A stretch of DNA of 34,645 bases from a virus, in the IMG/VR virus record IMGVR_UViG_3300028490_000016, positions 1 to 34,645 of that record; one strand, written 5' to 3'. Made by a program: the position numbers and the translations under genes. The notes below the pieces were generated by a model. The model was not told where the DNA came from and did no database searches. It saw only the letters and a program-made list of their open reading frames with translations. Below are positions 3,114-27,254 of the stretch, piece after piece; position 1 is the stretch's first letter, and every line of letters begins with the position of its first letter.

Positions 3114-3358
3114 TGGAAATGGATAACAGACAGGCTCAACGTATTAAATGGTCAGAAGCAGATTTATCTGATACAGCTGAAGTACTAAAACGTATTCATG
3201 CTGCAGGTATTGGTGCTAATGATGTCAAGACTGTAATTAGAGATATCTGTTTAACAGATAAAGACCTAGCTAATACAATACTAGAAGAACTACAATATTG
3301 GAGCAAACATGGAAGCAACAGTGAAGGTAAAGTACAAGACTTATGCTACTCTTTATAG
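3113..3358 (+). CDS. Hypothetical protein (81 aa)
   Basis: I do not recognise this protein. It is small, soluble and predicted mostly helical (KWSEADLSDTAEVLKRIHAAG, then VIRDICLTDKDLANTIL), with no signal peptide or membrane segment. ATG codons at 3110 and 3113 are both possible; AAGGAG at 3102-3107 is better spaced from 3113 (5 nt), while 3110 gives an ATGA overlap with the previous stop. Its last 50 nt overlap the start of the exonuclease gene in another frame. The overlap and operon position indicate co-expression with the replication genes; no function can be assigned. Confidence 0.6.
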   Translation: MEMDNRQAQRIKWSEADLSDTAEVLKRIHAAGIGANDVKTVIRDICLTDKDLANTILEELQYWSKHGSNSEGKVQDLCYSL

Positions 3359-3986: not shown

Positions 3987-4392
3987 GATGACTTTAGACG
4001 ATTACCCACAGACAGTTATATCCGATCCAACATTAACTAATGTTGATGATCCAATGAGACATAACGTAGGAGGTGCTATGAATAGACCTGTAAGAAATGA
4101 AGATCCACTAAGTGCTCGTAATGTAGAACACAACCACATTGATAAGGTACTAGAAGAGAGAGGTGAAAGATATGGAGAGTTTAAGAAACATGCTTATCTA
4201 TGTCAGGAACTTAAAGCAGTAATGCGATTAGGTGACTCATGGGACAAGTGTAGTCCATCACAGAAACAAGCCTTAGAAGTTATTGTTGATAAGATTGCTC
4301 GTATGCTTAATGGTGATCCATATTATGATGACAACTGGATTGACATTATTGGTTACTCACAGCTAGTATTAGACGAACTTAAGAAGGTATAA
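3979..4392 (+). CDS. DUF6378-like phage protein between exonuclease and polymerase
   Basis: The C-terminal two thirds has the pattern VLEERGERYGEF, a helix, then QKQALEVIVDKIARMLNGDP, then DNWIDIIGYSQLVLDEL. I recall this as a small conserved phage family (DUF6378) found beside replication genes, with an all-helical core somewhat reminiscent of MazG-type NTP pyrophosphatases; no activity is established that I know of. The first 45 residues are polar and probably disordered (VDDPMRHNVGG). It overlaps the exonuclease stop by 8 nt and ends one nt before the polymerase ATG, so it is translated with both. A role in dNTP pool control or replisome assembly is a guess from context only. Confidence 0.7.
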   Translation: MNKMTLDDYPQTVISDPTLTNVDDPMRHNVGGAMNRPVRNEDPLSARNVEHNHIDKVLEERGERYGEFKKHAYLCQELKAVMRLGDSWDKCSPSQKQALEVIVDKIARMLNGDPYYDDNWIDIIGYSQLVLDELKKV

Positions 4393-4393
4393 C

Positions 4394-6208
4394 ATGAACC
4401 CAATAGATTTACTGCCAATAGAACATCCTATTAAAGTAGATCCATCTATAGGAGAGTTAGATTACTTCTATAAGAATGTATCTAAACATTTGATTAACGA
4501 TGTTGTAAGAGTTATGAACAATGGTATTCCTATAGACCTAGCTAAGGTTGCAGAACTAGAGAAGACAGTTAAGAATGTATTAGCTGATGTTGAAGCGAGG
4601 TTGGCAGATAACAAGGTTATCCAAGACTTCCAAGCATTTATGTATCCTAAGAAGTTTAAAGCCTTCAAGGACGAGCAGGAGCTTAGAAAAAGACCTCTTA
4701 GCTACTACTTGAAACCTTATAAGGGAACTATCCCACAAAGAACCTATGTAGTAAATGCGTATCTAGGTGCAATAGGTAGTCCTCATGCTGGTAAAGATAA
4801 GTGGACTATTAAAGACCTTAAGGGATTGAACGTACTACTAGAAGATCCAGAAATAGCTGACATAATAAGTGGAGACACTAACGAAGAGACAGCTAAGTGG
4901 GGTATGTTAGCTATGGCTGAAGCAAAACTAGTGGTCTACAATAAGAGTGTAGATACGAAAGTAAAGACAGAGGGTACTCATGAGAAACTCTTACCTCCTT
5001 TTAATCCAGGTAGTAATAAGCAGAAGAGAGAACTATTTGAGTGGTTGAAAATACCAGCTATTAGACATTCTAAAGATACTGGTGAACCTAGTTGGAATAG
5101 AGAAGCTATAGAGGAGCTACAGATAACGATTGATAAGACAGAGACAACACTTCAAGAAGTCCTGCAGTTATTTGTAGACCATAGTTTCAGTGCTATTATT
5201 AACAACAACTTCATTGCCTCTTTTAAGAAGTATACCATTGATGGTATCTTGTATGGAAACATTAAGCTATTTGGAGCTAAGTCATTTAGACTGACATCTA
5301 GTAATCCTAACCTACTTAATATGCCTTCTACAGCTAGTATATATGCCAAACCACTGAAGGAGTGTTTCATAGCTCCTAAAGGATGGGTAATTCTTACTGC
5401 AGATTATAATGCATTGGAAGATAGAGTTATTGCTAACTTGTCTGGAGATGTGAACAAAATAGCAATATTTGAGGAAGGACTAGATGGACATAGTTTAGCT
5501 GCTACTTACTACTTTAGAGATCGTATCGAAAAACTAGTAGGACCTGTAATAGTAGGTATGGATAACAAGGAGATCTCTAAGGAACTCAAGAAGTTAATTG
5601 CTGAAGGTAACAAGAATATTAAAGAGATTAGACAGGACGGTAAACCAGTAACATTTGGTCTATCTTATGGTGCTTATCCTCAGAAAGTATCTGATACAAT
5701 AGGTTGTACGTTAGAGGTAGCTCAAGGTATATTTGATGCTTACCATAACGAGATGTTTCCTGGAATTACTGAGTTCCGAGAAGTCATTACTGAGGAAGCA
5801 AAATTAGAGGGGTATACCCATTTAGGATTAGGCTGTAGGCTTTATACTAGTGATGTGGGTAAGGAAGTAAGAACGCTATTTAATGCTAACAGTCAATTTT
5901 GGAGTATCTTAACTCTACTGACAATCAACAAACTACATTCACTAATAGATGACGCAGGATATACAGATGACATTAAGTGCATCTCTACTATCTATGACAG
6001 TATCTACTTTATCGTTAAAGAAGATGCTGAGATCATTCAGTGGTTGAATAATGTGTTGATTGAGGTTATGTGTGTCGATTATCTAGTTGATCAGAGAGTA
6101 CCTAATACAGCAGAGTCAGAGATTGGTAGAAACTGGAGTAATTTGGTTGAGCTATCTAACAAAGCTACGTTAGGTGAAATTGCATACAAGTTAAAGGAAG
6201 AGATATGA
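4394..6208 (+). CDS. Family A DNA polymerase, polymerase domain only (604 aa)
   Basis: Template-directed DNA synthesis on phage DNA. Motif A is ILTADYNALEDR (D337, E342, R344; usual DYSQIELR). Motif B is R413xxxK417xxxF421xxxY425G, the O-helix signature with Phe at the position corresponding to Pol I F762, the residue that selects against dideoxynucleotides. Motif C is STIYDSIYF, with catalytic D535 but Tyr and Ser flanking it instead of the usual His-Asp-Glu. No DEDD exonuclease motifs occur in the first 300 residues; that activity is encoded separately upstream. N4 and T7 polymerases carry both parts in one chain, so this is a split version. It starts one nt after the previous gene and overlaps the next by 4 nt (ATGA). 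Confidence 0.92.
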   Translation: MNPIDLLPIEHPIKVDPSIGELDYFYKNVSKHLINDVVRVMNNGIPIDLAKVAELEKTVKNVLADVEARLADNKVIQDFQAFMYPKKFKAFKDEQELRKRPLSYYLKPYKGTIPQRTYVVNAYLGAIGSPHAGKDKWTIKDLKGLNVLLEDPEIADIISGDTNEETAKWGMLAMAEAKLVVYNKSVDTKVKTEGTHEKLLPPFNPGSNKQKRELFEWLKIPAIRHSKDTGEPSWNREAIEELQITIDKTETTLQEVLQLFVDHSFSAIINNNFIASFKKYTIDGILYGNIKLFGAKSFRLTSSNPNLLNMPSTASIYAKPLKECFIAPKGWVILTADYNALEDRVIANLSGDVNKIAIFEEGLDGHSLAATYYFRDRIEKLVGPVIVGMDNKEISKELKKLIAEGNKNIKEIRQDGKPVTFGLSYGAYPQKVSDTIGCTLEVAQGIFDAYHNEMFPGITEFREVITEEAKLEGYTHLGLGCRLYTSDVGKEVRTLFNANSQFWSILTLLTINKLHSLIDDAGYTDDIKCISTIYDSIYFIVKEDAEIIQWLNNVLIEVMCVDYLVDQRVPNTAESEIGRNWSNLVELSNKATLGEIAYKLKEEI

Positions 6209-9305: not shown

Positions 9306-9310
9306 GCTAG
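9283..9310. terminator. Interrupted dyad across the convergent gene ends
   Basis: The two blocks end with stop codons one base apart (TAA at 9303-9305 on +, the - strand TAG at 9307-9309). Over them lies an interrupted inverted repeat: CTAGC (9283-9287) pairs with GCTAG (9306-9310), and inside it CCTC (9290-9293) pairs with GAGG (9298-9301) around GATA. Neither strand has a clear U-tract afterwards, so it is a weak candidate for a bidirectional terminator or an RNA-protecting end. Confidence 0.3.
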
Positions 9311-12300
9311 TTCCTGTCATAACCCATCATTAAATCGTATAATGCTGGAGATATACCTTCTGCTGTATTATCTACAATACTAAATGATGCTGCAGAGAAT
9401 ATCTTAAATGCTGACTCTTGAGCAGACTCTAAATCGAACCATACCCCATCTGCTGCTGTTTGTAGTAACCCAGCTAGTGAACTAACTACAGGTTTTTCTT
9501 TAAATCTTCTCAATAACACCCTCTTAATTCTTAACTTATATTTATAGAATGGATTAATCATAGTCTTATCTAAGTATGTAGCTACTTTACCACCTGTTGC
9601 TGCAGAATACATAATAGTTAATTCTCCTAACATCCTCTTTCTATTAAGCTCATACGTTGCTAACCTAGCTCGTCTGAATGCCTTATACCTGATATTACGT
9701 ATCTCCTCAGTAGCTAGTCCTTGTTTCTTTAAAGAACCAAAGTATGCTTTAAACTCATTCTTAATATCTTGTTCTATGTACTTCTTATCTAGTTGATCAG
9801 ATGTTATTTGAGCAGCGACATCAGCTAAGATGAATGCGTTAGTAAACCACTTATTTAGAGTAGTACCTTTATTCACATAAGCAATATCAAATGCTTTCTT
9901 CATTTTAGGGAAGCGTTCAGCATACTGGTATATCTTCTTATCTGTATCACTCATGTACAGTGACTCTTTTACGTTTAGGTCATCAATGAAGTTATCATGG
10001 AAACCTTCTTCTACCATGTACCAGACAGAGGACTTCTTAGCCTTAGCTCGTAATCTATCTAGTTTATCTTCAATAGCATCTACCTCATCAGGATCAGTAG
10101 TACCTCTTTGTCTAATTCTAGTCTCAGAGATATCTCTTTGTATTACGTTAATTTTGTGTAACTCTCGCATGTTCCTAAAGAATACTTGTAATACTTCAAT
10201 ATAGTTTTGTCTACCTTTAAGCATCTCCAGTAATACGTTTGAGGTAATGTTACCTGCAATAGTCACAAAGTTCTTCATAACAACATCTAATTTAAATAGT
10301 TTAGCTAGTTTCGTTAATCCATTCTCTACTCTTCTTACTATGTCTCTAACAGTTTTGTCGGTTATGTTATAAGACTCAAGTAGATCAACTACCGATCCAC
10401 CTTCTGTACCCATAGACATAGTTAATGCTTCTTTTCTAACCCATAGTCCATTCTCACCATTATTAGATAGTATAGGAGACTTCTTAATCTTCTGTTTTAA
10501 GTAGTTAGGTAACGTCTTATAGTGAAGCTGTAGTTCTTTCGATCTAGAGTCGATACCTACCCATACAAAATCACTAGGACTATCTAGTAGATTAGCTTCT
10601 GCATCTTCTGTAGCTACCGTTAGCCAATTACTGTTCTCTTTCTTACTTGCGTAGAACTCTTCTAAAGATCCTCTCTTGTGAGCTAAAGATGTAGAAGCTC
10701 TTTCATCAATATCTAGGTACTGGTTCTCTAGGTGTGGAGGAACAACAAATACAAAGTCTCTTACTTCACCTTTACCTGACTTCACTGGTGCAAAGTATGT
10801 TCTACTCTTTATGTTAGTACCTAAATGGAGCTTCTTCATCATACGGTTAGCTGTATTCTTAGATGCTCCTGCTTCAGTGAGGAGTTGCATCAGTGTTTTA
10901 CTACCTTCCATCTCTAAGTCGATTAGTCCAATTAGACCACCATTCCTATTAGAAAGTACAGACTCTTCTATTTTATAAATACCTACTTTAACATCTATTC
11001 CATCTAGTGTTACACTATCCACTAGTTCATTTCCTAGTTTCCTAGCTGTAGCAATATTCTCTTCAGTCATAATGACCGGAATTAATCTAGTGGTATCGTT
11101 AGTTACTTTGGTTGTACTTCCTTTAAGGGCTATCTTTCTATTGACTTCCTTAATCTTAGCAAATCTGTCTTCTACATCTTCAGATATATCTAGTGTCTTG
11201 TAGAAAGAGTCAAAGTACTTTCCTTCTTTGCCTACTTCATCTAGGAAGGTCTGTAAATTCTCATCTCTACCAATAGCGAATAACGTGATTAGTGCATCTA
11301 TTTCTTCAGTGTAGTAAGAAGCATCATGTGACTCTGCCAGGACAGATGCATTACTAGTACGTAGATTAATATCAGAAACACTAGCTTTATTGTTAGTTCT
11401 GTTATATAGGTGTTCTCCAGCTTTCTTTATAGACTCTATTAAGGCAGGAGAAGCATTAATACGTTCACTTAGTATGCGTATTGCTTCATCTGTATTATCT
11501 AGTTGTTGTAATACACCTAATGCTCTGATATCTGTATCTCTTACGTTGTCTGACGTAGGTAGTCTAAATAGTGATTGTAGATCATACTTTAGTACAAAAT
11601 GATGTAACGCTTCATCATTACGAACAGTAATAGCAGGTACACCTTTGACTACACCTAGTATGAATGTACTTACATCTCTAATCTTAGTCTCTCTAGCCTT
11701 ACTGATATACGTAGCAGCTCTTTGTGATAACTCATAGTACTTATTCATGTATTCTGTACTTGGTAAGATATCTTGGAGGAAACCACCGACATCACTGTTG
11801 TAATCATTAATGAGTACTTTATGTGCCATTTCTGGATTAAGATCTAGGTTAGCTATCAGTTTTACCTTATCTAGTACAGTAACGTGGTTTGCTATCTCTC
11901 TTGTACCATACTTAAACGAGTACATCATAACGTCAATATTATCTAACATTCTCCTAAAGTTGTTGTACATCTTACTTTTGTACATATTCTCTAACCCATT
12001 CATATCTAATGCCATAGACAACAGCAAAGCATCAGCTTTAAGGTTCTTTCTGTGGTCACCAGCATGTATTAAATAGTTAAGTACTTTCATGAATACGGAC
12101 TCTACAAACGAAATTATACCGTTAGAGGTATCTATGCTAGATGCTTCCTTTAGTATAGGGTTAGTTACATTATCACTAACATGTTTAGCTAGTACATGGT
12201 CAGACAACATGTGAGCATAAAACTCTTTCATTCTCTTCTCTTTAGAGCCTTCTCTAAAGACATAATCATACCTGTCCATAGACTCATCTCTAAACCAGGT

Positions 12301-15300
12301 GTTAGTAGCTTGTTTCTTAGCATCATCATAAATACTTTCTAGTAGGGAGTACTCATAAGAAAATCTATTTTTGAGTATGGGATTACCAAAGATTTTATCT
12401 ATAATGATGTGTATGTTCTCATGAACGAATACCTCAGAAGAGGATTGTTTTGTCTTACCATCTCCTGTTTTATGCATTATCTTAATAAGCTCAGGTAGAT
12501 CACTTTCGTACCTGAGGTCATACGTACCTAATGTTTTATCATCTGTTTCTAGTACATCATCTCTCTTGACTTCAAATAGTAGTGTCTCATTACCTTGCTG
12601 ATAGAAAGGCTTAACAATAGCATCAAATACTCCTCGTATAAAGGACTCTTCTCCTTCTTGTAATTCATCTCTAACTACCATACTCTCAAAGATAGTTTCT
12701 ACTGTCTCTGCCTTAATAGCATTAATACTCTCTTCAATACCATCTTCTATCTTATTAGCGTCTTCTGAGGAGTTACCTTTACCTTCCTCTTCCATTGCTT
12801 CTTCTACGATACTAAACAAGTCCATACCACCTAAACCACTACTCTCTGGTTTTGGCTTCTCTTTTGCTGTCTCTTTCTTTGTCTCTTCTTTAGTATCAGC
12901 AATAGCTTCTAGTAGAGCATTTAGCATATTCACATCTGCCTCTGCAGTGTGAGCCTTACCGAACTCTTCCATATTCTCTTCAGGTAACATTGTCTCTACC
13001 ATAGCTTCTAGTGTATGTGTTCCTGTACCTCTGCTAGTATTTAGTACGTATGCAGCAGTATATGGATCAATTACTTCAATCTTAGCTAATAGTGCCTGTA
13101 ACTTTACGTTATTTGTTCTAGTAGCTAGTTGTTGCATGATAGGTAAGTCTGAGTTGTATCCGTTATAAGCCACAATAGGGTATTTACCATTGTTTGTGAG
13201 TTCACTCAAGGTTTCGTATAGGAACTTACTTAAATCTTCCTCAGTCTTCGTATTAGACGTTGATGCATCTAGTGGCTTAGAGAACTCTTCAGATTCAAAC
13301 GCTTCTGCATACTTAGCGTTAGCTTTTTTACTCTTCATCCCTTCCATAAACTCTTCGTAGAAAGTAGGCTTAAAGTACAAAGTACTTAGTTCGCTATCAG
13401 GCTTACCTTCAGTAAATCTCATACCACCAAATTGTAAGATAGTATCATGTTGATCTAGCATCTTAAAGGTATTCTCTAAGTCAAACACTACGTAAGGAGT
13501 CTTACTTCTTACTAGTTCTTTAATTCGAGCAATAACCTTCTTAGGTATAGTTCCATCTAGTTCCCAATACTTACCTCTCTTGTCTAGTACTGTCTCTAGT
13601 TCTGTCTCTGTCAAAGCACCAGGATTTCTGGTTTTATACTGCTTACCTTTTACTTCTTCTTCTCTAATCTTTTCTACACGTTCTTCTTGGTCTAATCTCT
13701 CAACTGCTTCTTGTAGGATATTATTTATATCTTCTACTTGGTCATTCATGAATAGTGCTTCAGTAGCTTCTACTGTCTTTCCTGTTATCTCACCAACTAA
13801 CTCTTGCTTACCTTCAGTAGTTAGTTCATCACTTCTGTATATTTCCTCTATAACAGCCTTAATGTATGCACTTTCGCTTGTATGCTTTCTAGTACCTATC
13901 TTACTGAATAAGTCTCTTGTAAATATGCCTTTATGTGCAGCAGTAGTATCTTCATTAAACATACTAGGCTTCACTGCCTTGCTTACTTTAGTCTTAGTAT
14001 CTTTACTTTTAAACTCTTTCTCTTTAACAGTCTTCTCTAAACCAAACTCTTTAGCAACCTCTTCCACTAGTTTTAGTATCTGTTTTCTAGGATCTTTGCC
14101 TAGTAGATCTATATTAGCTGGGTGTATAGCTCCATTCGCTAATTTAATACCAGTTATTCTATTACCACTGATAAGTACTGGACCACTAGACGAGTACTGA
14201 GTAACAGAACCATCTAATTTACTTATCTTCTCTTCTCTATTAGTCTCAAAGGCAGTTTCAGACTCCTCTAATTTCTTCACTAGACTCTTCATCATATCTC
14301 TGAAAGTACTACTGTTGCTTGTTACCTTCTTACTGTTAAGTAGGGAGTTAAACAAGATGTACATAGTCTTATCTTCTCTATCTTCCTTTAGGTTGTTAAG
14401 GGTTACAGCAAATGCTGACATAAACTCTTTCTCTACTGCGTCATTGTTACTCATGTGCTCAAACTCTTTTAATAGCTTGATCATGTGCAGTCTAGCTTTC
14501 TTGTACAGGTTCTCTGTAGGGAAGTACGCTTCAGCAATAAAGCCTAAGTTAGCCATACCTGCTACAGCAGATCTATCTCCTGATGTTACCACTACGTTAT
14601 CAAATACTTGTAGGTATCCATACTTAACTAGTAGTGCCACTACAGCCTTATCAATGTTGTGAATACTACTTACTGCTGCAGCACCGGGGTTAGTGTCTAG
14701 CTCATACGATGGTTTAGACACCGATACAGTTTTACTACCTCCCTCTTTAGTATTAGGTACAATAAGTCTTTGGTTACCAGAAGCTTCTTCGTTTACTGTA
14801 GTATCACTAATATGTAGTACTTGGTTGTATGTGCTATCTCCTATACCAAATAGGTAATCTTCTCTAATAGAGTCCATCAATTTTGTCTGTATATCTTTAA
14901 TTTGGTTGATACCATTATTTATGTTTAGGTTAGCAAACATTCGTTGTACTACCTTACCAAATATTACAGACATGTTAGCCGTATGGTTAAGTAGTTGTCT
15001 ATTCTTCAACATTGGAGCATTAGTCTCTTCTAGAACGTCATACATCTTAGCTGTAACAATACCTTCTATTAGTGCTGTTGCTTTATACTTTAGGAAGTTC
15101 TCTATCTCTTTAGCATCATGCTTACTACCTGCATCTATCTCTGCAATAAAGCTCTTTATGTCCTTAGGGTTTAATCCTTTAGTCTGTACACCTCTTACGT
15201 GGTTTTCGTTGTATACTGCCATAGTAGATAATACATCTAACGCTTCCTCTAGATCTTCTACCATAGTAGTATCAGCTTTGTTTGATACGTTTAAGTAGTT

Positions 15301-18300
15301 GTGTATTCTAGTTTGTATTTGCTCTATCAGTACTGTAGCTGTACCAGTAGTAATAGCTCTTTCTTGTCTACCGTACAAGTATGTCATTAGTGGATCTTTG
15401 GAGAAGTTCCTACCTGCTACTGTAAGTTCCACTACCTCTTCACCATTCTCATCTTTGGTTACTTTAACTAGTTCATTACCCAACAGTAAACCTATTGCTC
15501 TTACTATTTCAGGAGACTCTTTGTATAGGTTCAGTGTAGCTAGTTCATATCCATCTTTAATCTCAATACCTAGTTCTAATAGGTCTGCTACTGTCTCTGC
15601 ATCTGTGATCTCTTGCTCTAGCTTAGGGTTCTTGCCTATAAGCTTCTGTTTAGCTGTAGTAGTAAGTTGACCAGTAGATAGTAGTAACTCCCAAGTATCT
15701 TCTATATTACCCTCCATAGCAGATAAGAATGCTGCTGCTGAAGCTTTACCATCTACTCCTATGGTGTTACTGTGTACAAAGAAGCCTGTCTTATTAGAGT
15801 GTGCTCTCTTGTACTCCCCGTAGGCATGTATAGCATTAATGATAGATGAGTCTTTTATATCAATGAACCCACCCAATACCTTCATGTCCTTAGGACTAAT
15901 AGTTCCATCTAGTAATGCATCCACTAGTTTTGCTACGTTATCGGGTATTACGATGTCTGCAAATGCCTCTATATTAGCCTTATCATTTCGGTAGTCAGCT
16001 TTCTTATTGTACTTCTTAGAAAAAAACTTGCTAGGTAACGCACTAACGATGTTTTCTTTAAACTCATGCAATGCTAGATTGCTTGTAGTATCAGCTAGGT
16101 GTACGACTGAACTAGTAGTAGTTTCTGTAGTCATCATATATCTAAAGAACTTATCTGATTGAGGTTCTAGTAACCCCAGTCCTTGCATATATAGTCTACC
16201 GTTAGCTCCTACACTAGCTGCATAATGTACTACCGGACTGTTTAGATCTCTAAATGCCTGAATAGTCTTTATGATCTGTACCACTTCTCCAACATTACCT
16301 TCATAACTAGCTTTCTGCTCTCTAGTCATGTTCTTAATTTCAGACATGTGATTATTGTATGCATCCTGTAACTTACTTGCCATATCGGAGATATCCATAG
16401 AAGGAGTTGGCTCTTTACCTATAACTGCTTTATAGTACTCTTTGATATTTATATCTGTGTGAGTAAGTAGTCTACTAGGGTTCACTGACTTAATGTTCAT
16501 ATTGAATAAGTTAAGTAGCTCAAATACACTTTGTTTAGTAATAGCCTTTAGCATCTCTGTAGGATACCAACTGATGCTTTCCATCTGTTCTATTTGCTCT
16601 GCACTATGCTCATTAGGTTTATCGTTACTTTTCTTTATTCTCTTCTGACTATAACTTATCTTATCTGATACAGGTACTAGTCCTTCTTGTTCTACCTTCC
16701 CAATTATCTCTTGTTCTACTAGATCTTTGTATAGGTGCTTAAGTGCTATGTCTTTTTCTCGTACATGCATATCTATACCGTTTTGGTCAGCATTCTGTCT
16801 AAAGTAGATATATGTCACATTACCTTTAGCAGAGCTGTGCTTGTCTAACATTACACTATCTGATATCAGAGACTCTACTGCTACTAGTGCAATACTTTCT
16901 GCAATATAACCCTTTAGAGGATTTGTAATAGCGTAGTCATACTCCTCTACTACACCTTCAAGCGTAGTTCTATTCTTCTGCATAGTTTCTGCTGTCAATA
17001 CTAAATCTAACTGATCCTGGATAGCCTTAGACATATAGGAGATGAATTCACTTCTACTAACCCCTAGATTATTAAGGTCTTCATTCTTGATTGACTCCTG
17101 AGGATTTACAGCTAGTTGTATAGAGTAGTTTCTAATTGCTTCTAGTGCTCCCTTTATTACTGATGCTTGGATATCTTTATGTAGGTGTCCGTTCTTATCT
17201 AATGCTGTGTATAGATACGGATTACTGTTCAAGTACTTCTCTATAGTCTTCTCGTCAAAGACAATAGTACCAATACTCTTTTGTATCTCTTCAATCATCT
17301 CTGATAGTGCTACTACATCTTTAGTATCTGTACCCTCTGTAGGTAGGATATTAGTTAGACTTTCACTTATCTTATTGGACATGAGCATGGTAGCTTTACC
17401 TGCTGACTTGAATGCCAGGATAACAAACTTAGTCATCTCAGTTGCTACTTCTCTGCCTTTGTCGTTTAAGTACTTATAGACATACGCTGTACCTGCTTCA
17501 TTCACACTAATTCTATCAGGAAGTAACTCCTCTAATACCTCTTGCTGATCTTCATCTTTTAGTTTACCAACGAATACCTCTGGATGTACCATAGCTCTTA
17601 GTAGCCTACGGATTAGAGCTTTTCTGCTCTTACTGTCTTTACTACCTATAGTATCATCAACCAGCAGTTCATCTACTTGTTTAAATATGTTGGCAAATAG
17701 TCTTTCATCTCTAGCTTTAATGCTGTTGGTGTCTGCCTTCTTCTTGTTCTTCTTCTTCTTCTTCTTGCCTGTCTGAGTAGTATCTTCTACAGTATCCTCT
17801 ATGATCTCTGTAGCTTCTTTAGTAGACATACCTAATAGTGTTGGCAACAATGCTTTAAATGCTTCTATATGAGACTTCTCTATATCACTAAGTTCTTGTA
17901 GCTCTGCTGTCAATGTACCTGTAGGTTCTTCACCTTCTTTAGCCTTAGATAGTCCAGTCTTGGAGTTCTTAGTTTCTAGGAATATCTCTAAACTCTTGTC
18001 TATACTATCTAGCTTAGACTTTAGTGAGATAGCATCTGTAGTACCAGATATTACTCTCATTATAGTGTTGAGGTGACTCTGTAGAGATGGCTTACCTTTA
18101 CTGTGATTACCTTTAGTATCATTAAAGATACCTCTAGCTGTATTTGCTATAGACTCCATATCTACTGAAGGATCATTCATCTTATTCTGTACATTTCTAG
18201 ACTTAGCAAACCCTGTATTGATTAACATCTGAGCTGTCAAGAATGCTTCTCTCTGCTCTACTGTTAGAGCACCAAATTCTTCCATCTTAGTAGCTATCAC

Positions 18301-21300
18301 TAGCTCTGCCTCTGAAGATAGTTCTCTGCTGAATAGTGTCTTAGACAGTGCTTTACCTGAGACTGATGAACTAGTTACACCATTACCACTGTCTAGGATA
18401 CTTGTAAAATACTCATTAGCTGCACTAACAATACTTGCTGTATCACCATTCTCGCTTTGTGTCTTAGCTAGGTATAGCACTTTACTGTAGATATCTGGTA
18501 AGCTATCTAGTATCTTCTTAGTTTTAGTATCTCTACTCTTTCCACCGAATGCGTCTTGTGCTGCTTTACTACTACCACCAGTACCAAATGCATCTTCTAC
18601 AGCATCTTCTGACTCTTGTGTATTAGAGTCTGTAGCAATCTCTTGTTCACCCTTGGCTATAAGATTAGTTTTTATACTCTCGTATACTTTCTGAGATGCA
18701 CTACCCTCTTCTGCTGTAGCTATTAGTTCATCTAGTAGTACCAATCTTTCTTGTCTAGTATCACCTTCTTTTGTGAATACGTTTGATAGCTCTGATAGTA
18801 CTACACTAAAGTTCTTGGTGTTCATGTTGTTTAGTTTATTGGCTAACTCTACTTTCTTACTATCAGTAGGATTTTCTACAAGATCCTTAGCTAGTGTTTG
18901 TACTGCTTCATGTCCCTCTTTTATCCTATCGGCATATCCTTTGGCTTGATCCTTAGTTATTGTACCACTATCTACTGCTCTCTCTAGTAGTGTCATTAGT
19001 ACTCTACCTGTTGCATCTCTTTCACCGGAAGAATACATTAGTGTTTCTGCATTAGTTACTAGATCCTCTATTGCATCTACCTCTGTTTCGTGGGTACTGT
19101 TCTTTACGTTATCCTGAAAAGTTGAGTATGTCTCATCTGCAGATTGACTCTGCTTACCTGTAGCCTGTAGTAGTGACTCTGTGTTGTTGAGTTCTCTTTC
19201 TCCAAACAAGGTGTTTAGTTCTGTGTTACTACCTACGTTACCGAACAGGTCTGTACTGTTGTTTACTTCAGTCTTTCTCTTACGTTCTTTAACACCTTTG
19301 GCAGCCATTACTCCACCATGCATAACTCCACCAGCACCAAATCCTAAGATAGCTCCTTTAGTGGCAGCATCCATGAAGTGTTCACTGAAAGGATCATCAC
19401 CATACTTCTCTGTACCTAGAGCACCATTGATAGTTTCTCCCCATGTTTGGGTAAACTCTTGTGCTGCTTCTATTGAACCATTCTTGACTAGTTGTGACGT
19501 AATAGCTGCAGCCTTCTTAGCTACCCCTACCATACCACCTTCAGGTATTGCTTTCATCATAGCTTTGATAGGTTTGACGTTTAGTTCTTTACCTAATGCC
19601 CATCTATCTATACCTGCTAAAGAGTACTCTAGTGCAAACATACCTGCTACTTGAGCTAAGTTTACATCTGTATCACCATTAGCTATTCTCTCATCTATTT
19701 GGTTATTCACCTCTTTAGCTGAGAATGCCATTAGACCATGATTAGTTGCAGGATCATACGCCTTCTTTAGCATACCTCTCTTGCTGAACTTCTCAGTAGC
19801 CTTAACACCTGCGTCTATTGCTTTAGTATCCATCATAGCGATTGGTAGTGCAGCTTTTAGGTTAGCTTTAGTGTATGCTTGTCCTGATGCTTTAAGCCCT
19901 TCTTCTGCTATCTTTAGTGCTGCTGCTTTTTGTGCTACTCTACCAGCTTTAGCTGCTGTAGTAACTGCACCTGTCAGTCCACCAGAATACAGCATTAGAG
20001 CCATATCTGGAGCAGATTGAGCAATAGTGTCAGGAGCAGCTTTAATACCTTTAAATAGTGCTCCTACGTAGTCACCCTTCTTCCATTGTCGTACTGCTTG
20101 TCTACCTAATGCTTCTACTTCGTGTCTACCTTTATATCCCCAAGTTTCATCTGCTGACTCAGCAGACTTAACATTATCTAACCATTCTCCTTGACCAGCA
20201 TTTACAACGGTAGCTGTAGCATCTAACGCTAGATCTCCTAACCCTGCAGCTACCTGCTGAATACCAGATCCTACAGCACTAGCTAGATCTCCTGGAGCAC
20301 GAATTAAAGCTCTAGTCTTCTTACCCTTGTGTTCCATGTTAGCAACTAGTTGAGCCATCTCTTCGTACTCTACGGAGTTCTCCCCGTAAAGACTCTTCTT
20401 CTTGTCTAGTTCTTTGTATGCTAGTTCCATACCTCTACTGTCATATCTATCTGCTACATGCACACCTAGTTCATCTAACTTAGCTGCTGAACTCATATTA
20501 AGAGTTCTTACTTTATCTGCAGATGCACTTCCATCTAGTTGCATGAAGTCAGCATTGTATATCTCTGATTTACCTGCACCATAGTTTTCTACATCTGTAC
20601 CAATATCATTACGTCTGGTCTTGAGCATACTTCTGTTACCATGAAACATTGCTTCATACTTAGCAGCATCTTTAGTACGCTTAGTCCACAAGTAAGTGAT
20701 ATCCTTACCTCTATCTTCTTCTGCTGTTCTACTGAAGGTATCTACTCCAGCCAGTCCTATCTTGTATGAGCTAGTCCCGTCTAGGTTATCTATTCTTGCA
20801 TAGTAAATTAATTGGTCTGCTTCAGGATCTTCTTTAGCATTCATAAGATTAGAACGTAAACTATCAATAGATTTATCGTTCATTGTAGCTTGTCTACTGT
20901 ACATAGTATTACCGTCTTCATTGACCTGTAAGTTCATGTCAGCTCTAGCTGCCTCTTCTTCTTCCTTCTTATTCTTGTAAGTAGGTTTACCAAAGATGTA
21001 AGCCATCACATCATCATAGCCATCGTCAATAGAGTCTGCAGTTCTTTCTAGCCAACCAGTAGGTTTATTTCTATCTATACCAGGATCTTCATTACGATAT
21101 TGGGTAGTACCGATCTCACCTTTACTGTATACATCAGTTATATTTTGTTTACCTAGTCGTTCAGCTCTGTGTCTTGAAGCATACTCATCAGATATGTCTA
21201 CTTGCTCTGATGGGATACCTCCAGTCTCAGGTATAGCAGCTAGTGTATCAGGTATACCTAGACCATCATAAGGACTAGCCTTAGCAGTAGAACCAGGAGT

Positions 21301-21429
21301 TATTTGTCCTATATCTCTAGCTATGATATCCTTCTCTGACATTACACCTTTAGCAGTATTTCCATACTCATCTCTAGAGACAGGCTCTCTTCCACCATTA
21401 GACAAATACCTACTACGAAAACCACCCAT
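9307..21429 (-). CDS. Giant N4-type virion RNA polymerase with nuclease- and protease-like domains (4040 aa)
   Basis: Counterpart of N4 gp50, the RNA polymerase packaged in the capsid and injected to transcribe early genes. Polymerase signatures: GANGR (R1745), VDGKASAAAFLSAM (D1893), R2007xxxK2011x7Y2019G, and VFDNVVV (D2277), preceded by IHNID like FVHSQD of T7 RNA polymerase. Spacing suggests a polymerase domain of about 1320-2430, after a Lys-rich linker (1221-1231). Other regions: GIY-YIG/T5orf172-like (204-295: YKIG 222-225, R234, E259, E289); Gly/Ala-rich, possibly membrane-active segments (about 380-710); DEDDh exonuclease-like (D2650, E2652, D2761, H2827, D2832); HENIH zinc-peptidase-like (3003-3007, E3069); and an unassigned C-terminal quarter, possibly for packaging. 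N4's protein has about 3500 residues. AAGGAG precedes the ATG. The frame is unbroken. The polymerase call is strong; extra domain activities are inferred. Confidence 0.88.
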   Translation of the reverse strand: MGGFRSRYLSNGGREPVSRDEYGNTAKGVMSEKDIIARDIGQITPGSTAKASPYDGLGIPDTLAAIPETGGIPSEQVDISDEYASRHRAERLGKQNITDVYSKGEIGTTQYRNEDPGIDRNKPTGWLERTADSIDDGYDDVMAYIFGKPTYKNKKEEEEAARADMNLQVNEDGNTMYSRQATMNDKSIDSLRSNLMNAKEDPEADQLIYYARIDNLDGTSSYKIGLAGVDTFSRTAEEDRGKDITYLWTKRTKDAAKYEAMFHGNRSMLKTRRNDIGTDVENYGAGKSEIYNADFMQLDGSASADKVRTLNMSSAAKLDELGVHVADRYDSRGMELAYKELDKKKSLYGENSVEYEEMAQLVANMEHKGKKTRALIRAPGDLASAVGSGIQQVAAGLGDLALDATATVVNAGQGEWLDNVKSAESADETWGYKGRHEVEALGRQAVRQWKKGDYVGALFKGIKAAPDTIAQSAPDMALMLYSGGLTGAVTTAAKAGRVAQKAAALKIAEEGLKASGQAYTKANLKAALPIAMMDTKAIDAGVKATEKFSKRGMLKKAYDPATNHGLMAFSAKEVNNQIDERIANGDTDVNLAQVAGMFALEYSLAGIDRWALGKELNVKPIKAMMKAIPEGGMVGVAKKAAAITSQLVKNGSIEAAQEFTQTWGETINGALGTEKYGDDPFSEHFMDAATKGAILGFGAGGVMHGGVMAAKGVKERKRKTEVNNSTDLFGNVGSNTELNTLFGERELNNTESLLQATGKQSQSADETYSTFQDNVKNSTHETEVDAIEDLVTNAETLMYSSGERDATGRVLMTLLERAVDSGTITKDQAKGYADRIKEGHEAVQTLAKDLVENPTDSKKVELANKLNNMNTKNFSVVLSELSNVFTKEGDTRQERLVLLDELIATAEEGSASQKVYESIKTNLIAKGEQEIATDSNTQESEDAVEDAFGTGGSSKAAQDAFGGKSRDTKTKKILDSLPDIYSKVLYLAKTQSENGDTASIVSAANEYFTSILDSGNGVTSSSVSGKALSKTLFSRELSSEAELVIATKMEEFGALTVEQREAFLTAQMLINTGFAKSRNVQNKMNDPSVDMESIANTARGIFNDTKGNHSKGKPSLQSHLNTIMRVISGTTDAISLKSKLDSIDKSLEIFLETKNSKTGLSKAKEGEEPTGTLTAELQELSDIEKSHIEAFKALLPTLLGMSTKEATEIIEDTVEDTTQTGKKKKKKNKKKADTNSIKARDERLFANIFKQVDELLVDDTIGSKDSKSRKALIRRLLRAMVHPEVFVGKLKDEDQQEVLEELLPDRISVNEAGTAYVYKYLNDKGREVATEMTKFVILAFKSAGKATMLMSNKISESLTNILPTEGTDTKDVVALSEMIEEIQKSIGTIVFDEKTIEKYLNSNPYLYTALDKNGHLHKDIQASVIKGALEAIRNYSIQLAVNPQESIKNEDLNNLGVSRSEFISYMSKAIQDQLDLVLTAETMQKNRTTLEGVVEEYDYAITNPLKGYIAESIALVAVESLISDSVMLDKHSSAKGNVTYIYFRQNADQNGIDMHVREKDIALKHLYKDLVEQEIIGKVEQEGLVPVSDKISYSQKRIKKSNDKPNEHSAEQIEQMESISWYPTEMLKAITKQSVFELLNLFNMNIKSVNPSRLLTHTDINIKEYYKAVIGKEPTPSMDISDMASKLQDAYNNHMSEIKNMTREQKASYEGNVGEVVQIIKTIQAFRDLNSPVVHYAASVGANGRLYMQGLGLLEPQSDKFFRYMMTTETTTSSVVHLADTTSNLALHEFKENIVSALPSKFFSKKYNKKADYRNDKANIEAFADIVIPDNVAKLVDALLDGTISPKDMKVLGGFIDIKDSSIINAIHAYGEYKRAHSNKTGFFVHSNTIGVDGKASAAAFLSAMEGNIEDTWELLLSTGQLTTTAKQKLIGKNPKLEQEITDAETVADLLELGIEIKDGYELATLNLYKESPEIVRAIGLLLGNELVKVTKDENGEEVVELTVAGRNFSKDPLMTYLYGRQERAITTGTATVLIEQIQTRIHNYLNVSNKADTTMVEDLEEALDVLSTMAVYNENHVRGVQTKGLNPKDIKSFIAEIDAGSKHDAKEIENFLKYKATALIEGIVTAKMYDVLEETNAPMLKNRQLLNHTANMSVIFGKVVQRMFANLNINNGINQIKDIQTKLMDSIREDYLFGIGDSTYNQVLHISDTTVNEEASGNQRLIVPNTKEGGSKTVSVSKPSYELDTNPGAAAVSSIHNIDKAVVALLVKYGYLQVFDNVVVTSGDRSAVAGMANLGFIAEAYFPTENLYKKARLHMIKLLKEFEHMSNNDAVEKEFMSAFAVTLNNLKEDREDKTMYILFNSLLNSKKVTSNSSTFRDMMKSLVKKLEESETAFETNREEKISKLDGSVTQYSSSGPVLISGNRITGIKLANGAIHPANIDLLGKDPRKQILKLVEEVAKEFGLEKTVKEKEFKSKDTKTKVSKAVKPSMFNEDTTAAHKGIFTRDLFSKIGTRKHTSESAYIKAVIEEIYRSDELTTEGKQELVGEITGKTVEATEALFMNDQVEDINNILQEAVERLDQEERVEKIREEEVKGKQYKTRNPGALTETELETVLDKRGKYWELDGTIPKKVIARIKELVRSKTPYVVFDLENTFKMLDQHDTILQFGGMRFTEGKPDSELSTLYFKPTFYEEFMEGMKSKKANAKYAEAFESEEFSKPLDASTSNTKTEEDLSKFLYETLSELTNNGKYPIVAYNGYNSDLPIMQQLATRTNNVKLQALLAKIEVIDPYTAAYVLNTSRGTGTHTLEAMVETMLPEENMEEFGKAHTAEADVNMLNALLEAIADTKEETKKETAKEKPKPESSGLGGMDLFSIVEEAMEEEGKGNSSEDANKIEDGIEESINAIKAETVETIFESMVVRDELQEGEESFIRGVFDAIVKPFYQQGNETLLFEVKRDDVLETDDKTLGTYDLRYESDLPELIKIMHKTGDGKTKQSSSEVFVHENIHIIIDKIFGNPILKNRFSYEYSLLESIYDDAKKQATNTWFRDESMDRYDYVFREGSKEKRMKEFYAHMLSDHVLAKHVSDNVTNPILKEASSIDTSNGIISFVESVFMKVLNYLIHAGDHRKNLKADALLLSMALDMNGLENMYKSKMYNNFRRMLDNIDVMMYSFKYGTREIANHVTVLDKVKLIANLDLNPEMAHKVLINDYNSDVGGFLQDILPSTEYMNKYYELSQRAATYISKARETKIRDVSTFILGVVKGVPAITVRNDEALHHFVLKYDLQSLFRLPTSDNVRDTDIRALGVLQQLDNTDEAIRILSERINASPALIESIKKAGEHLYNRTNNKASVSDINLRTSNASVLAESHDASYYTEEIDALITLFAIGRDENLQTFLDEVGKEGKYFDSFYKTLDISEDVEDRFAKIKEVNRKIALKGSTTKVTNDTTRLIPVIMTEENIATARKLGNELVDSVTLDGIDVKVGIYKIEESVLSNRNGGLIGLIDLEMEGSKTLMQLLTEAGASKNTANRMMKKLHLGTNIKSRTYFAPVKSGKGEVRDFVFVVPPHLENQYLDIDERASTSLAHKRGSLEEFYASKKENSNWLTVATEDAEANLLDSPSDFVWVGIDSRSKELQLHYKTLPNYLKQKIKKSPILSNNGENGLWVRKEALTMSMGTEGGSVVDLLESYNITDKTVRDIVRRVENGLTKLAKLFKLDVVMKNFVTIAGNITSNVLLEMLKGRQNYIEVLQVFFRNMRELHKINVIQRDISETRIRQRGTTDPDEVDAIEDKLDRLRAKAKKSSVWYMVEEGFHDNFIDDLNVKESLYMSDTDKKIYQYAERFPKMKKAFDIAYVNKGTTLNKWFTNAFILADVAAQITSDQLDKKYIEQDIKNEFKAYFGSLKKQGLATEEIRNIRYKAFRRARLATYELNRKRMLGELTIMYSAATGGKVATYLDKTMINPFYKYKLRIKRVLLRRFKEKPVVSSLAGLLQTAADGVWFDLESAQESAFKIFSAASFSIVDNTAEGISPALYDLMMGYDRN
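17737..17766. repeat. CTT/AAG triplet tract encoding a Lys-rich linker
   Basis: A run of CTT/TTC triplets broken once by G. On the coding strand it reads AAG repeats for six Lys, Asn and three Lys (residues 1222-1231 of the giant protein). It lies about 90 residues before the inferred start of the RNA polymerase domain, so it probably marks a flexible basic linker; triplet slippage could vary its length. Confidence 0.6.
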
Positions 21430-21446: not shown

Positions 21447-22631
21447 TTACTTTACTTTATTGATAGCTTTATCAAACTCTCTGATAACTTTCTCTGACTT
21501 AATTCTATTTACCTCTTCTAGGTTAGATCCGGCTCTCATAATACGAAGTTTCTTCTCTAGTGCTGCTGTCTCTATAAATAGTTTCTTGTAACTAGGATGA
21601 GATGGTCCAACTGCTTCTAGGAACTCCTTGTTGTACTGTACAGTAGCTTCTGCATCATTTACTGCATCAGTAGTTTCATCTGTAAAGCCTTCTCTGATAC
21701 CTGCATACATATTAGCACCTGCTAGACCGACAGTATCAAGGAAACCTGTTATACCACTATTCTTCCCAGATAAGCGTAACATAGCTTCCTTTCTAGCTGC
21801 TTCTGCAGTAGCTTTTGTTACAGTATTGTCTTTAGCATACTTTACAATAGTATCTACAGCTCCAGCTTTATTGTCTTTAAGGTCTTGAGCAAATGCTCTA
21901 TTCGTTTCTGCAACTCTACCCTTCTGAAATTTAAAGGTCTTATTTACCATTCTCTGTACCTTAGAGGTAGAACCATCAGGTAGTTTAGCTAGTCCAGGAA
22001 AGTACTTACTGTAGTTTTTCTTCAGTTCCTCAGGAGTCATATTAGATAACTTCTTAAGATCCTTGAAGTCCATTCTATCCAGTCCTGCTTGTAGGTCTTC
22101 GTGGAATACACCAAGTGCAGTAGCATCTTTCTCTTTCTTTAATGCATATATGCTCTCATCTGTTGCTGCACCACTAGCCTTACTTTGAGCCTCACTAGCT
22201 TTAATGGCTGCTGCTGTAACAGGTATCTGTGCAATTCGTTTAGCTTCATTGATATCTGATAAAACTTTAGCTGCTGCTACTCTGTCTCGTCTAGCCTGTT
22301 GGTTGTCGGCAAGTACACTAGCATTATATGACTGTGTAGCCATCTTATCTACAACACCACTAATCCTATTACTATCCATGTAGGTATCAGCCATACCACC
22401 TAGATCCTCTGGCTTTATCTCACCTGACAATAATCCCATCTCTATCTCAGCAGTATTACGTTCTTTTAGTGTTGCATCGTTCTTCTCATCTAGGGATCTC
22501 TTATCCTTGAAGATAGAGTCTATCATTGCATTAGTATGCATCATATTCTCTATAAGTTTATCGTTACCGTTAACTAAGTTTAGTGAAGGTACATAAGCAC
22601 TTCCTACTGTATCAAAATTTACTCCTGCCAT
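21447..22631 (-). CDS. Virion/internal protein, helical (394 aa)
   Basis: Not assigned to a named family. The protein is rich in Ala, Lys, Glu and Asp and mostly helical (AARKEAMLRL, ETAALEKKLRIMRAG), with one Gly/Ala-rich stretch (GFLDTVGLAGANMYAGI) that could touch a membrane. No signal peptide or catalytic motif is visible. It sits directly upstream of the giant virion polymerase in the late transcript (17 nt gap), the place occupied in N4-like phages by small virion proteins gp51-gp52, so it is probably a virion or ejection protein. It follows the 222-aa gene by 9 nt. Confidence 0.7.
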   Translation of the reverse strand: MAGVNFDTVGSAYVPSLNLVNGNDKLIENMMHTNAMIDSIFKDKRSLDEKNDATLKERNTAEIEMGLLSGEIKPEDLGGMADTYMDSNRISGVVDKMATQSYNASVLADNQQARRDRVAAAKVLSDINEAKRIAQIPVTAAAIKASEAQSKASGAATDESIYALKKEKDATALGVFHEDLQAGLDRMDFKDLKKLSNMTPEELKKNYSKYFPGLAKLPDGSTSKVQRMVNKTFKFQKGRVAETNRAFAQDLKDNKAGAVDTIVKYAKDNTVTKATAEAARKEAMLRLSGKNSGITGFLDTVGLAGANMYAGIREGFTDETTDAVNDAEATVQYNKEFLEAVGPSHPSYKKLFIETAALEKKLRIMRAGSNLEEVNRIKSEKVIREFDKAINKVK

Positions 22632-22640
22632 CTGCTACTC

Positions 22641-23309
22641 CTACTTACTGTATGGTACAGCATACTCTCTGTACGTCTTGTAAGGGTTAGCTGCAGCAAT
22701 CTGTGTCATATACGCAGTGTTGTTAGCATTACCTAATCCCATCTGTTGATTACGTCTTTGTTTAGCAATCTTATTGTGTTGATCAGTTCTCTTCATGTAG
22801 ATACCCTCATTAGCTAGAGAGATCTTAGCTGCATTCTGCTTCTGTGTCTCTTCTAATGCTTGATAGGATTGATATGCATTCCAAGCTGACATACCTAACT
22901 TGTATGCAGGAGCTACCCAACCTGAGGTAGTAATACCATTTTGTGTAGTACCAAATGCACCTTCACCTGTAGCAATACCATATCCACCAGTAATAGAGTT
23001 ACCATCAAGACTAGCACCTCCATTAGGGATAGGATTAGTAGCAGTACCAGTAGTAACAGCGTTCCCCCCTGCATCAGTAGTTGTAACTGTTTCCGGCTCT
23101 ACTACAGGAGCATTTATATCTATAGGTACGTTCTTCTTTGGATCATTCCACATAAAACTACCCCAACCAGATTTTAGAGTCAGATTACCATTAGCATCTG
23201 CTCCCCAATTAGGATTTCTTGCTAACATCTGCTGTCTTACTTCAGGAGTAGCTGCTAGGTAGTCCTCTTTAAACTTTAGTTCACTATAGCCATTAATTAC
23301 GGTACTCAT
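22641..23309 (-). CDS. Virion protein, Gly/Thr-rich centre (222 aa)
   Basis: Not recognised by sequence. It has a polar N-terminus (RNPNWGADANGN), a low-complexity Gly/Thr/Asn-rich middle (VTTTDAGGNAVTTGTATNP), and a helical C-terminal part: AYKLGMSAWNAYQSYQALEETQ, then KISLANEGIYMKRTDQHNK. The latter resembles small internal virion proteins of podoviruses (T7 gp14-like style: a short amphipathic segment followed by a charged helix). It is likely a particle or ejection protein given its place between the membrane-segment protein and the 394-aa protein. AAAGGAAT upstream of the ATG supports the start. Confidence 0.65.
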   Translation of the reverse strand: MSTVINGYSELKFKEDYLAATPEVRQQMLARNPNWGADANGNLTLKSGWGSFMWNDPKKNVPIDINAPVVEPETVTTTDAGGNAVTTGTATNPIPNGGASLDGNSITGGYGIATGEGAFGTTQNGITTSGWVAPAYKLGMSAWNAYQSYQALEETQKQNAAKISLANEGIYMKRTDQHNKIAKQRRNQQMGLGNANNTAYMTQIAAANPYKTYREYAVPYSK

Positions 23310-25129: not shown

Positions 25130-27223
25130 TTACAGTCCTGTATCTAGTGATAATCTCTCTATCTTAGAGGATAATTCTGGTCCTTTAAGTGCTTCAATTA
25201 CCATACCTTCTGCACCTAGTGTGTCTATCTGAATAGTCCACATATCTTTAAGTAGCTTCATGGTGTCGTTTCTCTGACCATGAATGTATGTCTTACGTTG
25301 TTGATCGTATAAACTAGCTTGTTTGTTCTTAGATTGAATATCTGCATTAGTCATACGTCTACTAGATGCTCCATTCGCTTTAGCTTCTTCTGTCTGTACC
25401 TTAGTAGCGTATGCTTGATACTTCTTAAGCATAGCATCATACTTAGCTGTCTTAATGCCAACTCTAGTCTGTTCTATCTTAGCCTCTGTAAGGTTTCTAT
25501 TAAGTACACCGTTCATAGTAGTTTCAGCAATATCTTTCTGTGTCTTATCAATAAGTACTTTAGCTTCTTCTCTCTTATACTCGTTAGTAGCATTAGTTTC
25601 ACCGATAGTGTTGTAAGTAGCTACAACATTAGCTTCTGCACCCTCTATCTGTTTACCTAATAGTTCTACTTGCTTCTCAGAACTCTTAGTATCTTGAGTG
25701 AGTTTAGCTAGATCTAGTGGTGTTCTTACTTTTCTCTCTTCTATCTCAAATAGCATCTGATCTGTCTTAACTTCAGTTTCTACTACTTGTGCTTGTGTAA
25801 GCAGGGAAGCATACATAGTTTGTTCTGTCTTAGCTTTAGTTAGAGCAATATCATACTTAGACTTCTCTTCCTTCAATGCATTATCTAAATCACTGCTGTC
25901 TTTCTTTAGGTTAAACTCTGCAATAATAACGTCTAGTTTAGCCTTATCTAGTAAGAGTTGTTTTTCTTGAACTAGAAATGCTGTAGTCTGTTGCATAGCT
26001 GATGATATGGCTGATGCATAAAATTCACCAAATGCTTTGTTGTCTAACCTAGAGTTCTTAAACTGTAGGTCTATAGAACTATCAATAGCTGTCATCAACT
26101 TATCAAACAATCCATCACCATTAGCACAACCACTAGTTATATCTTCATCTGAGATTTCTACATCTACGTCTATTTCAAGATCAGGAGTCTCTTCCACATC
26201 TACTTCTTCAGTAGTTATCTCATCAATCTCAGGCTTATCTCGTTCTTCTATTTCTCTCTCTTCAAACGTACAAGGTAAATCCTGTAGACAAGTCTCATGC
26301 TCTTCTGAGTAAGTATCTTTGTTGTAGTCTTTGTTGAAGTCAATGTACTCTCTATCAAATCCTTCAGAGTCAGTAGTTGCTGTTTCTGTAGAAGGAACAT
26401 ACTCTATACCATCGAAGTTAGGATCTGGAAGGTCATCAGGAGTTACTACAGCAAACTCACTTCTATCAGCAGTAGTAGCTACGTCTATATTGTCTGTAAA
26501 CGTATCTAGTTCCTGAACGATAGTACCCATCGGTGTACTTCGTCTTGTCATAGGAGATAGTGGATCTCTGTAGTCACCTAAGAAGGTAGTCATTAACTCT
26601 GCACTAGTTACTGGGATCGCATCATCAATATTGATTAAGGCAGTGTTGATGGTAGTTAGGGATGCTTCTATCCCTCTTACGACATCTTGCATGATTACTA
26701 TGTTAGCATCTACCATTCCTTCGGTACAAGTAGGAGATAGCCTTACTGCGTAACAAGCTAGAGTTTCTTGGTAGGCAAATCGCATATCCAATAGTCTTTG
26801 TTCTTCAGACTTGCCTTTCAGAGCCTCATAGTGGGGAATAGGTAGAGCACAAACAGAACTACAATTTAGTTCTCTTCCACCAGGACTAGTAGCTGTACCG
26901 TCACCATCAGCGTTAGCCCAATCTGCATGAGGATCGGTAGCCTCTCTGTTAGGAGCACCTGTAAACTTATCTTCATATCTGTACATAGGGAAAGGATTTT
27001 CTTCGCTTAGGGTACAGTTCTCATCTGTATTAACACCATTCTCTTCGTTACATTGGTTGTTAATATCTTCTGCTTCTTCTAACGTAGTAGTTAGACATGC
27101 ATTCTCTATAGTACAGTAGAAATACCCTGCTGCTGTACATTCCTCAGGAGTAGCACCAGCACCAGGATACGTTCCTGCTCGTTCTTCAAGACTGGGAATT
27201 TTATTCTTCTTATTGTCTGCCAT
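25130..27223 (-). CDS. Structural protein: Cys-rich N-terminal extension plus coiled coil (697 aa)
   Basis: The C-terminal half (about 366-697) is a long helical coiled coil starting GLFDKLMTAIDSSI and continuing TTAFLVQEKQLLLDKAKLDV, then many heptad-like Lys/Glu repeats; I recall this style from N4 gp54-type structural proteins. The first 365 residues are different: acidic, with about a dozen cysteines and a motif ECTAAGYFYCTIENACL shared with the late-region lipoprotein, plus NADGDG, a calcium-loop-like sequence. The cysteine-rich part looks extracellular. ATG codons at 27229 and 27223 are possible; AAGG touches the first, while the second has 5-6 nt spacing, so I chose 27223. A surface-exposed or tail-associated role is inferred from the Cys-rich part. 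Confidence 0.7.
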   Translation of the reverse strand: MADNKKNKIPSLEERAGTYPGAGATPEECTAAGYFYCTIENACLTTTLEEAEDINNQCNEENGVNTDENCTLSEENPFPMYRYEDKFTGAPNREATDPHADWANADGDGTATSPGGRELNCSSVCALPIPHYEALKGKSEEQRLLDMRFAYQETLACYAVRLSPTCTEGMVDANIVIMQDVVRGIEASLTTINTALINIDDAIPVTSAELMTTFLGDYRDPLSPMTRRSTPMGTIVQELDTFTDNIDVATTADRSEFAVVTPDDLPDPNFDGIEYVPSTETATTDSEGFDREYIDFNKDYNKDTYSEEHETCLQDLPCTFEEREIEERDKPEIDEITTEEVDVEETPDLEIDVDVEISDEDITSGCANGDGLFDKLMTAIDSSIDLQFKNSRLDNKAFGEFYASAISSAMQQTTAFLVQEKQLLLDKAKLDVIIAEFNLKKDSSDLDNALKEEKSKYDIALTKAKTEQTMYASLLTQAQVVETEVKTDQMLFEIEERKVRTPLDLAKLTQDTKSSEKQVELLGKQIEGAEANVVATYNTIGETNATNEYKREEAKVLIDKTQKDIAETTMNGVLNRNLTEAKIEQTRVGIKTAKYDAMLKKYQAYATKVQTEEAKANGASSRRMTNADIQSKNKQASLYDQQRKTYIHGQRNDTMKLLKDMWTIQIDTLGAEGMVIEALKGPELSSKIERLSLDTGL

Positions 27224-27254
27224 GTTCATCCTTTAGTTTGTATAGATATAAGTA

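Follow-up and report, generated by a model that had tools for sequence, protein, structure and literature searches.

A predicted DEDDh exonuclease domain in the giant virion RNA polymerase of an N4-like phage contig

What would a phage RNA polymerase be doing with nucleases of its own? The question is raised by IMG/VR virus record IMGVR_UViG_3300028490_000016, whose 34,645 bases, a fragment of a genome, are referred to here as the window. An open reading frame (ORF) of 4040 codons with an ATG start occupies positions 9307-21429 on the minus strand. A first-pass annotation had read it as a single unbroken gene, leaving its strand unstated, and had proposed that its product joins an N4-type RNA polymerase to a GIY-YIG-like domain, a DEDDh exonuclease-like domain and an HExxH zincin-like domain. 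The frame is indeed unbroken and, by sequence, its product belongs to the N4-type (Schitoviridae) virion RNA polymerases (vRNAPs).

The polymerase and its domain layout

The 4040-residue protein matches the PHROG family phrog_2206 'virion RNA polymerase' with E=4.3e-48. A full-length homologue of 3604 residues is encoded on the minus strand (L172:7779-18590) of the closest relative, contig IMGVR_UViG_3300033146_001486 (G001), whose major capsid protein is 80% identical to that of the window. We aligned 12 vRNAPs: the window protein, N4 gp50 and ten more. In this alignment R1745 (motif T/DxxGR), D1893 (motif A), R2007, K2011 and Y2019 (motif B) and D2277 (motif C) stand opposite R424, D559, R666, K670, Y678 and D951 of N4 gp50, and all six are invariant in the 12 vRNAPs, which upholds the proposal of a full N4-type polymerase motif set. 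R666 of N4 is counted here as a catalytic residue. The other five N4 residues have been named as catalytic in published work (PMC2784036).

The protein contains no cysteine, although the other genes of the window would lead one to expect ~21. Among the vRNAPs compared, that of N4 and the remaining unsplit ones also lack cysteine, a state previously reported for N4-type vRNAPs and tied to host entry (PMC2784036); Alteromonas-type and split vRNAPs have one or two cysteines per ORF. The vRNAP is divided over two genes in Alteromonas phages V19 and R22Y (L002 24766-34020 and L004 24771-34048), and likewise in contigs G002 and G003 (L173 6567-17134 and L174 6480-16982), with an N-terminal part of ~1000-1160 residues and a polymerase part of 2080-2400 residues. 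The vRNAP region of phage AD45-P1 (L003 35624-47306) is annotated as a possible frameshift and holds two long ORFs, neither with an HExxH motif.

From the N- to the C-terminus, the proposed layout would be a GIY-YIG-like nuclease, a membrane-associating N-terminal domain (NTD), a Lys-rich linker, the polymerase, the DEDDh domain, the zincin and a large C-terminal domain (CTD):

9307-21429, minus: virion RNA polymerase gene (N4 gp50-type), 4040 residues, no cysteine (ORF and translation, phrog_2206, homologue in G001)
20530-20823, minus: probable GIY-YIG (T5orf172-like) domain, residues ~203-300 (motifs; phrog_681 match of the relative's copy)
19270-20292, minus: N-terminal region, residues ~380-720, kept in relatives (288 bits to G001, 91 bits to contig G004)
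17737-17766, minus: Lys-rich linker KKKKKKNKKK, residues 1222-1231, at the junction of NTD and polymerase
14440-16362, minus: single-subunit RNA polymerase core, residues ~1690-2330 (the six catalytic residues in the 12-vRNAP alignment)
12706-13776, minus: insertion of linker, DEDDh domain and acidic/Lys linker, residues 2552-2908 (~82 residues at the same place in G001)
12895-13512, minus: predicted DnaQ-type DEDDh 3'-5' exonuclease domain, residues ~2640-2845 (profile matches and motif residues)
12100-12507, minus: zincin-like metallopeptidase domain, residues ~2975-3110 (HExxH motif and distal Glu unchanged in all 12 vRNAPs)
9310-11982, minus: C-terminal domain (N4 C2 counterpart), residues ~3150-4040 (319 bits to G001; weaker matches to other contigs)

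Judged by position, residues ~380-720 would be the counterpart of the N4 NTD, which is membrane-associated (PMC12633501). The Lys-rich linker noted in the first-pass annotation is present from residue 1222. The hydrophobic segments listed beside it are weak: a mean hydropathy of 1.3 over 19 residues is reached in only a few short places.

The DEDDh domain at the polymerase hinge

Residues ~2640-2845 are predicted to form a DnaQ-type DEDDh exonuclease, with all five catalytic residues in the canonical order D-x-E, D, H-x4-D (D2650, E2652, D2761, H2827 and D2832) and with agreement between three profile libraries. Against phrog_192 'DNA polymerase exonuclease subunit' the E-value of the region varies with the slice taken, from 1.4e-8 to 4.2e-10. 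The PADLOC DEDDh model matches at E=9.8e-8 over positions 1-138 of 139, and the NCBIfam model of DNA polymerase III epsilon at E=1.3e-5; three Pfam families of exonuclease kind match weakly (RNase_T 0.03, RNase_H_2 0.009). The phrog_192 match was listed for slices of 203, 401 and 701 residues and was unlisted in a scan of the full-length vRNAP. Profile searches with three shuffled copies and one reversed copy of the domain returned nothing below 0.02. The exonuclease-like domain proposed earlier is thus borne out by its residues and by the three libraries.

The domain lies in a segment that interrupts an otherwise continuous similarity to the closest relative: phmmer pairs blocks 1451-2551 and 2909-4030 of the window vRNAP with 1353-2419 and 2502-3598 of its homologue. 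In N4 numbering, the 12-vRNAP alignment places the DEDDh columns at residue 2122. This lies in the linker between polymerase and CTD (2102-2123), which is invisible in the cryo-EM structure of the N4 enzyme (PMC12633501). The domain was not found in the vRNAP of the closest relative, although both flanks align, nor in the vRNAPs of ten other phages compared. A motif search did not find it in the vRNAP ORFs of a first contig survey, and in 90 further virus records, some of which are fragments, profile searches did not find it in any vRNAP; the few DEDDh profile hits in those records lie in separate ORFs of 217-637 residues that are not vRNAPs. A PF00929 search of 34 related virus records came back empty, and a PDB sequence search with the domain gave no relevant match. 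Because the relatives lack the domain and because it sits at the position of the N4 linker, the comparison points to a recent, lineage-specific insertion at a natural hinge rather than to a decayed domain. It seems, then, that an N4-type vRNAP can accommodate a whole extra enzyme at the hinge between polymerase and CTD. Elsewhere in the window, a stand-alone 3'-5' exonuclease (3309-3986, plus) and a family A DNA polymerase (4394-6208, plus) are encoded as separate genes.

The GIY-YIG-like and zincin domains

An N-terminal GIY-YIG domain is probable, not certain, with weaker support than the DEDDh domain has. Its motif residues in the window protein are Y210, Y222-G225, R234, E259 and E289; Y222, G225, R234 and E259 are kept in the copy of the closest relative, which reads Y-K-Y-G and is 47% identical. 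That copy matches phrog_681 'endonuclease' at E=5.9e-6. The phrog_681 segment concerned coincides with PF10544 (T5orf172), and because both match the same loci in other records, the match is indicative of a GIY-YIG nuclease. In hhalign comparisons with T5orf172 the segment ranks first of 88 along the protein, at a low probability (5.6, and ~20 for the pair alignment). None of 200 shuffles reached the real score of a three-sequence alignment; a five-sequence alignment, which was misaligned, scored weakly, and 3 of 300 shuffles equalled or beat that score. Judged by motif and position, Alteromonas phage AD45-P1 and contigs G002 and G003 have comparable motifs at the corresponding site and apparently share the domain; a profile of the window and G001 copies reaches AD45-P1 only at E=0.1. 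The window also encodes a stand-alone GIY-YIG nuclease of the SegE type (2577-3113, plus; PF19835, E=2.3e-9).

The zincin-like domain is upheld at sequence level. Its HExxH motif and distal Glu (H3003, E3004, H3007 and E3069) are invariant in all 12 aligned vRNAPs, in accord with the first-pass annotation. N4-like vRNAPs fused to zincin domains were reported in 2017 (Iyer et al. 2017, PMC5512222), and an HExxH motif is present in the C1 subdomain of N4 itself (PMC12633501). The domain was rejected as a novelty, fusion of vRNAP and zincin being the family norm; by sequence it is an old, known feature of the family with a predicted peptidase role. Other known vRNAP partner domains are ART, lysozyme and PBECR (PMC5512222), and the words GIY-YIG and DEDD are missing from the main text of that paper. 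By the literature searched, the DEDDh insertion is new for vRNAPs and so, with less certainty, is the GIY-YIG domain; the claim of an undescribed domain set thus holds for these two and fails for the zincin. The first-pass annotation had also pointed to loss of active-site residues in close relatives as evidence against its proposal; the outcome is mixed, since in G001 the GIY-YIG and zincin residues are kept and the whole DEDDh domain is missing.

Delivery, possible roles and comparison with known systems

The vRNAP strand also carries the portal, major capsid and structural genes, and the genes for primase, DNA polymerase A, Sak4 and SSB face them. This arrangement is N4-like, with late genes on one strand and SSB, Sak4 and DNA polymerase opposite; the two ejection proteins are assigned by position:

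21447-22631, minus: probable ejection protein at the gp51 position (N4 gene order only)
22641-23309, minus: probable ejection protein at the gp52 position (N4 gene order only)
28184-29431, minus: major capsid protein, N4 gp56-type (phrog_1357, E=1.9e-88)
31093-33270, minus: portal protein, N4 gp59-type (PF23899, E=1.3e-69; phrog_1216, E=9e-107)

Profile searches gave no family match for the products of 21447-22631 and 22641-23309. The capsid protein matches 469 phage records, nearly all of them Schitoviridae among those with lineage read. Upstream of the portal gene in the late operon lies a gene for an outer-membrane beta-barrel protein (33396-33989, minus; PF13505, E=8.9e-8) with a signal-peptide-like start. 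A Cys-rich module, ECTAAGxFYCTIENxCL, is common to a lipoprotein-like protein (34052-34540, minus) and a tail-type structural protein (25130-27229, minus); a pattern search found no other occurrence in the fetched loci.

Packaging and ejection of the 4040-residue protein are likely, because of its homology to N4, the N4-like gene order and the absence of cysteine. The N4 vRNAP leaves the virion last, strung out as beads of 250-300 residues, and transcribes early genes at the membrane (PMC12633501). By analogy, the window protein would be packaged in few copies, would pass through the tail one bead after another, and would stay at the inner membrane to transcribe early genes. For the nuclease domains we infer catalysis, substrate and biological purpose: on their flexible linkers, the DEDDh and GIY-YIG domains could trim or cut DNA or RNA near the point of entry; the likeliest substrates would be host DNA, defence nucleic acids and free 3' ends. 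We think it probable that the gene is the gp50 vRNAP of a Schitoviridae-type phage, a polyvalent ejected protein with accessory, co-delivered nucleases. An accessory role is the most likely one for the added nucleases because the relatives do without the DEDDh part, and a nuclease that is confined to one lineage and attached by linkers of its own is more in keeping with accessory cargo than with a core function of the polymerase. Polyvalent proteins have been described as carrying accessory enzymatic cargo (PMC5512222).

Several observations weigh against this reading. Searches of viral and genome contigs, phages and plasmids found no close homologue of the DEDDh domain, so conservation within it cannot be checked, and the window's GIY-YIG domain matches no profile library searched. 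AlphaFold models of the two domains have mean pLDDT values below 50 (45.5 for DEDDh, single-sequence; 47.2 for GIY-YIG, two-sequence), and Foldseek returned nothing at E<=0.001 for either. The fold search proposed in the first-pass annotation thus yielded no significant Foldseek match; in VIA-align rankings, the solved structures nearest to these low-confidence models are of the predicted families, with TREX1, RNase T and REXO2 (Z ~4-5) for DEDDh and UvrC GIY-YIG domains first (Z 4.0-4.1) for GIY-YIG. These rankings agree with the sequence evidence and are by themselves no proof.

The exonuclease might instead serve the polymerase by trimming or proofreading the 3' ends of early transcripts, like the DEDDh ExoN of nidoviruses; there are precedents for viral ExoN enzymes (PMC7968707). 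Such a role would suit a domain that follows immediately on the polymerase and sits on the flexible hinge with the CTD, and RNase T and REXO2, which stand among the nearest structures of the low-confidence model, are DEDDh enzymes acting as RNA 3' exonucleases. However, all other vRNAPs compared, that of the closest relative included, work without the domain, its best profile matches are proofreading subunits of DNA polymerases, and the long linkers on either side imply no fixed geometry, all of which makes the role rather unlikely. That a virion-delivered, DNA-dependent RNA polymerase edits or trims its own transcripts through a built-in DEDDh domain, as a DNA-phage counterpart of nidovirus ExoN proofreading, we consider quite unlikely. 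Those same matches to exonuclease subunits of DNA polymerases would agree with a part in DNA replication or genome-end processing, and N4 DNA replication needs the N4 vRNAP (PMC2784036); this too is quite improbable, as the window has its stand-alone exonuclease gene (3309-3986) beside the family A DNA polymerase (4394-6208) and the relatives replicate without the insertion. One or both nuclease-like domains could also be catalytically dead and act as nucleic-acid-binding or structural beads. Zincin degeneration is known in the family, AD45-P1 lacking HExxH, and family models fail to recognise the strongly diverged GIY-YIG domain of the window, but the DEDDh residues are complete and G001 has retained the R and E of GIY-YIG, and we regard this as decidedly improbable. 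An assembly chimera, conceivable for an insertion seen in one sequence only, from one metagenome contig, is highly improbable, with the frame open across both joints, both flanks aligning to the same relative, a GC content of 0.372 against 0.374 for the gene, and no cysteine in the segment.

An ejected vRNAP with accessory nucleases remains the reading that we prefer, and it would add two nuclease types to the known cargo of ejected vRNAPs, with relevance to early takeover and counter-defence. The first-pass observation was sound, and its interpretation is partly supported. The beads-on-a-string model of ejection is directly testable here, the window and G001 proteins forming a natural with/without comparison: the latter shares the GIY-YIG-like domain, NTD, polymerase, zincin and CTD, without DEDDh.

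Compared with N4 gp50, the window protein has in common the catalytic residues, the order of NTD, polymerase, zincin and CTD, the absence of cysteine, the gene order and the HExxH motif with distal Glu. It is longer (4040 against 3500 residues), has the DEDDh insertion where N4 has a 23-residue linker, and carries a GIY-YIG-like domain that is undescribed in the N4 texts compared; at a place comparable to the Lys-rich linker, N4 has a low-complexity linker of ~100 residues (PMC12633501). The DEDDh domain shares canonical Exo motifs and profile matches with known DnaQ/DEDDh exonucleases and, unlike them, is a domain inside a vRNAP, between long linkers. The GIY-YIG-like domain shares the KIG, R, E...H and G.G.SE pattern of T5orf172-type nucleases, and the G001 copy matches the family segment; the window copy is too divergent for Pfam and is N-terminal in a vRNAP rather than stand-alone. 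Polyvalent phage proteins are delivered with the DNA (PMC5512222), and the window protein would be delivered likewise. With them it shares the giant multidomain build in which a polymerase is fused to a zincin and other enzymatic domains (PMC5512222): several unrelated enzymatic domains, the GIY-YIG part less certainly, stand together with a zincin in one giant protein.

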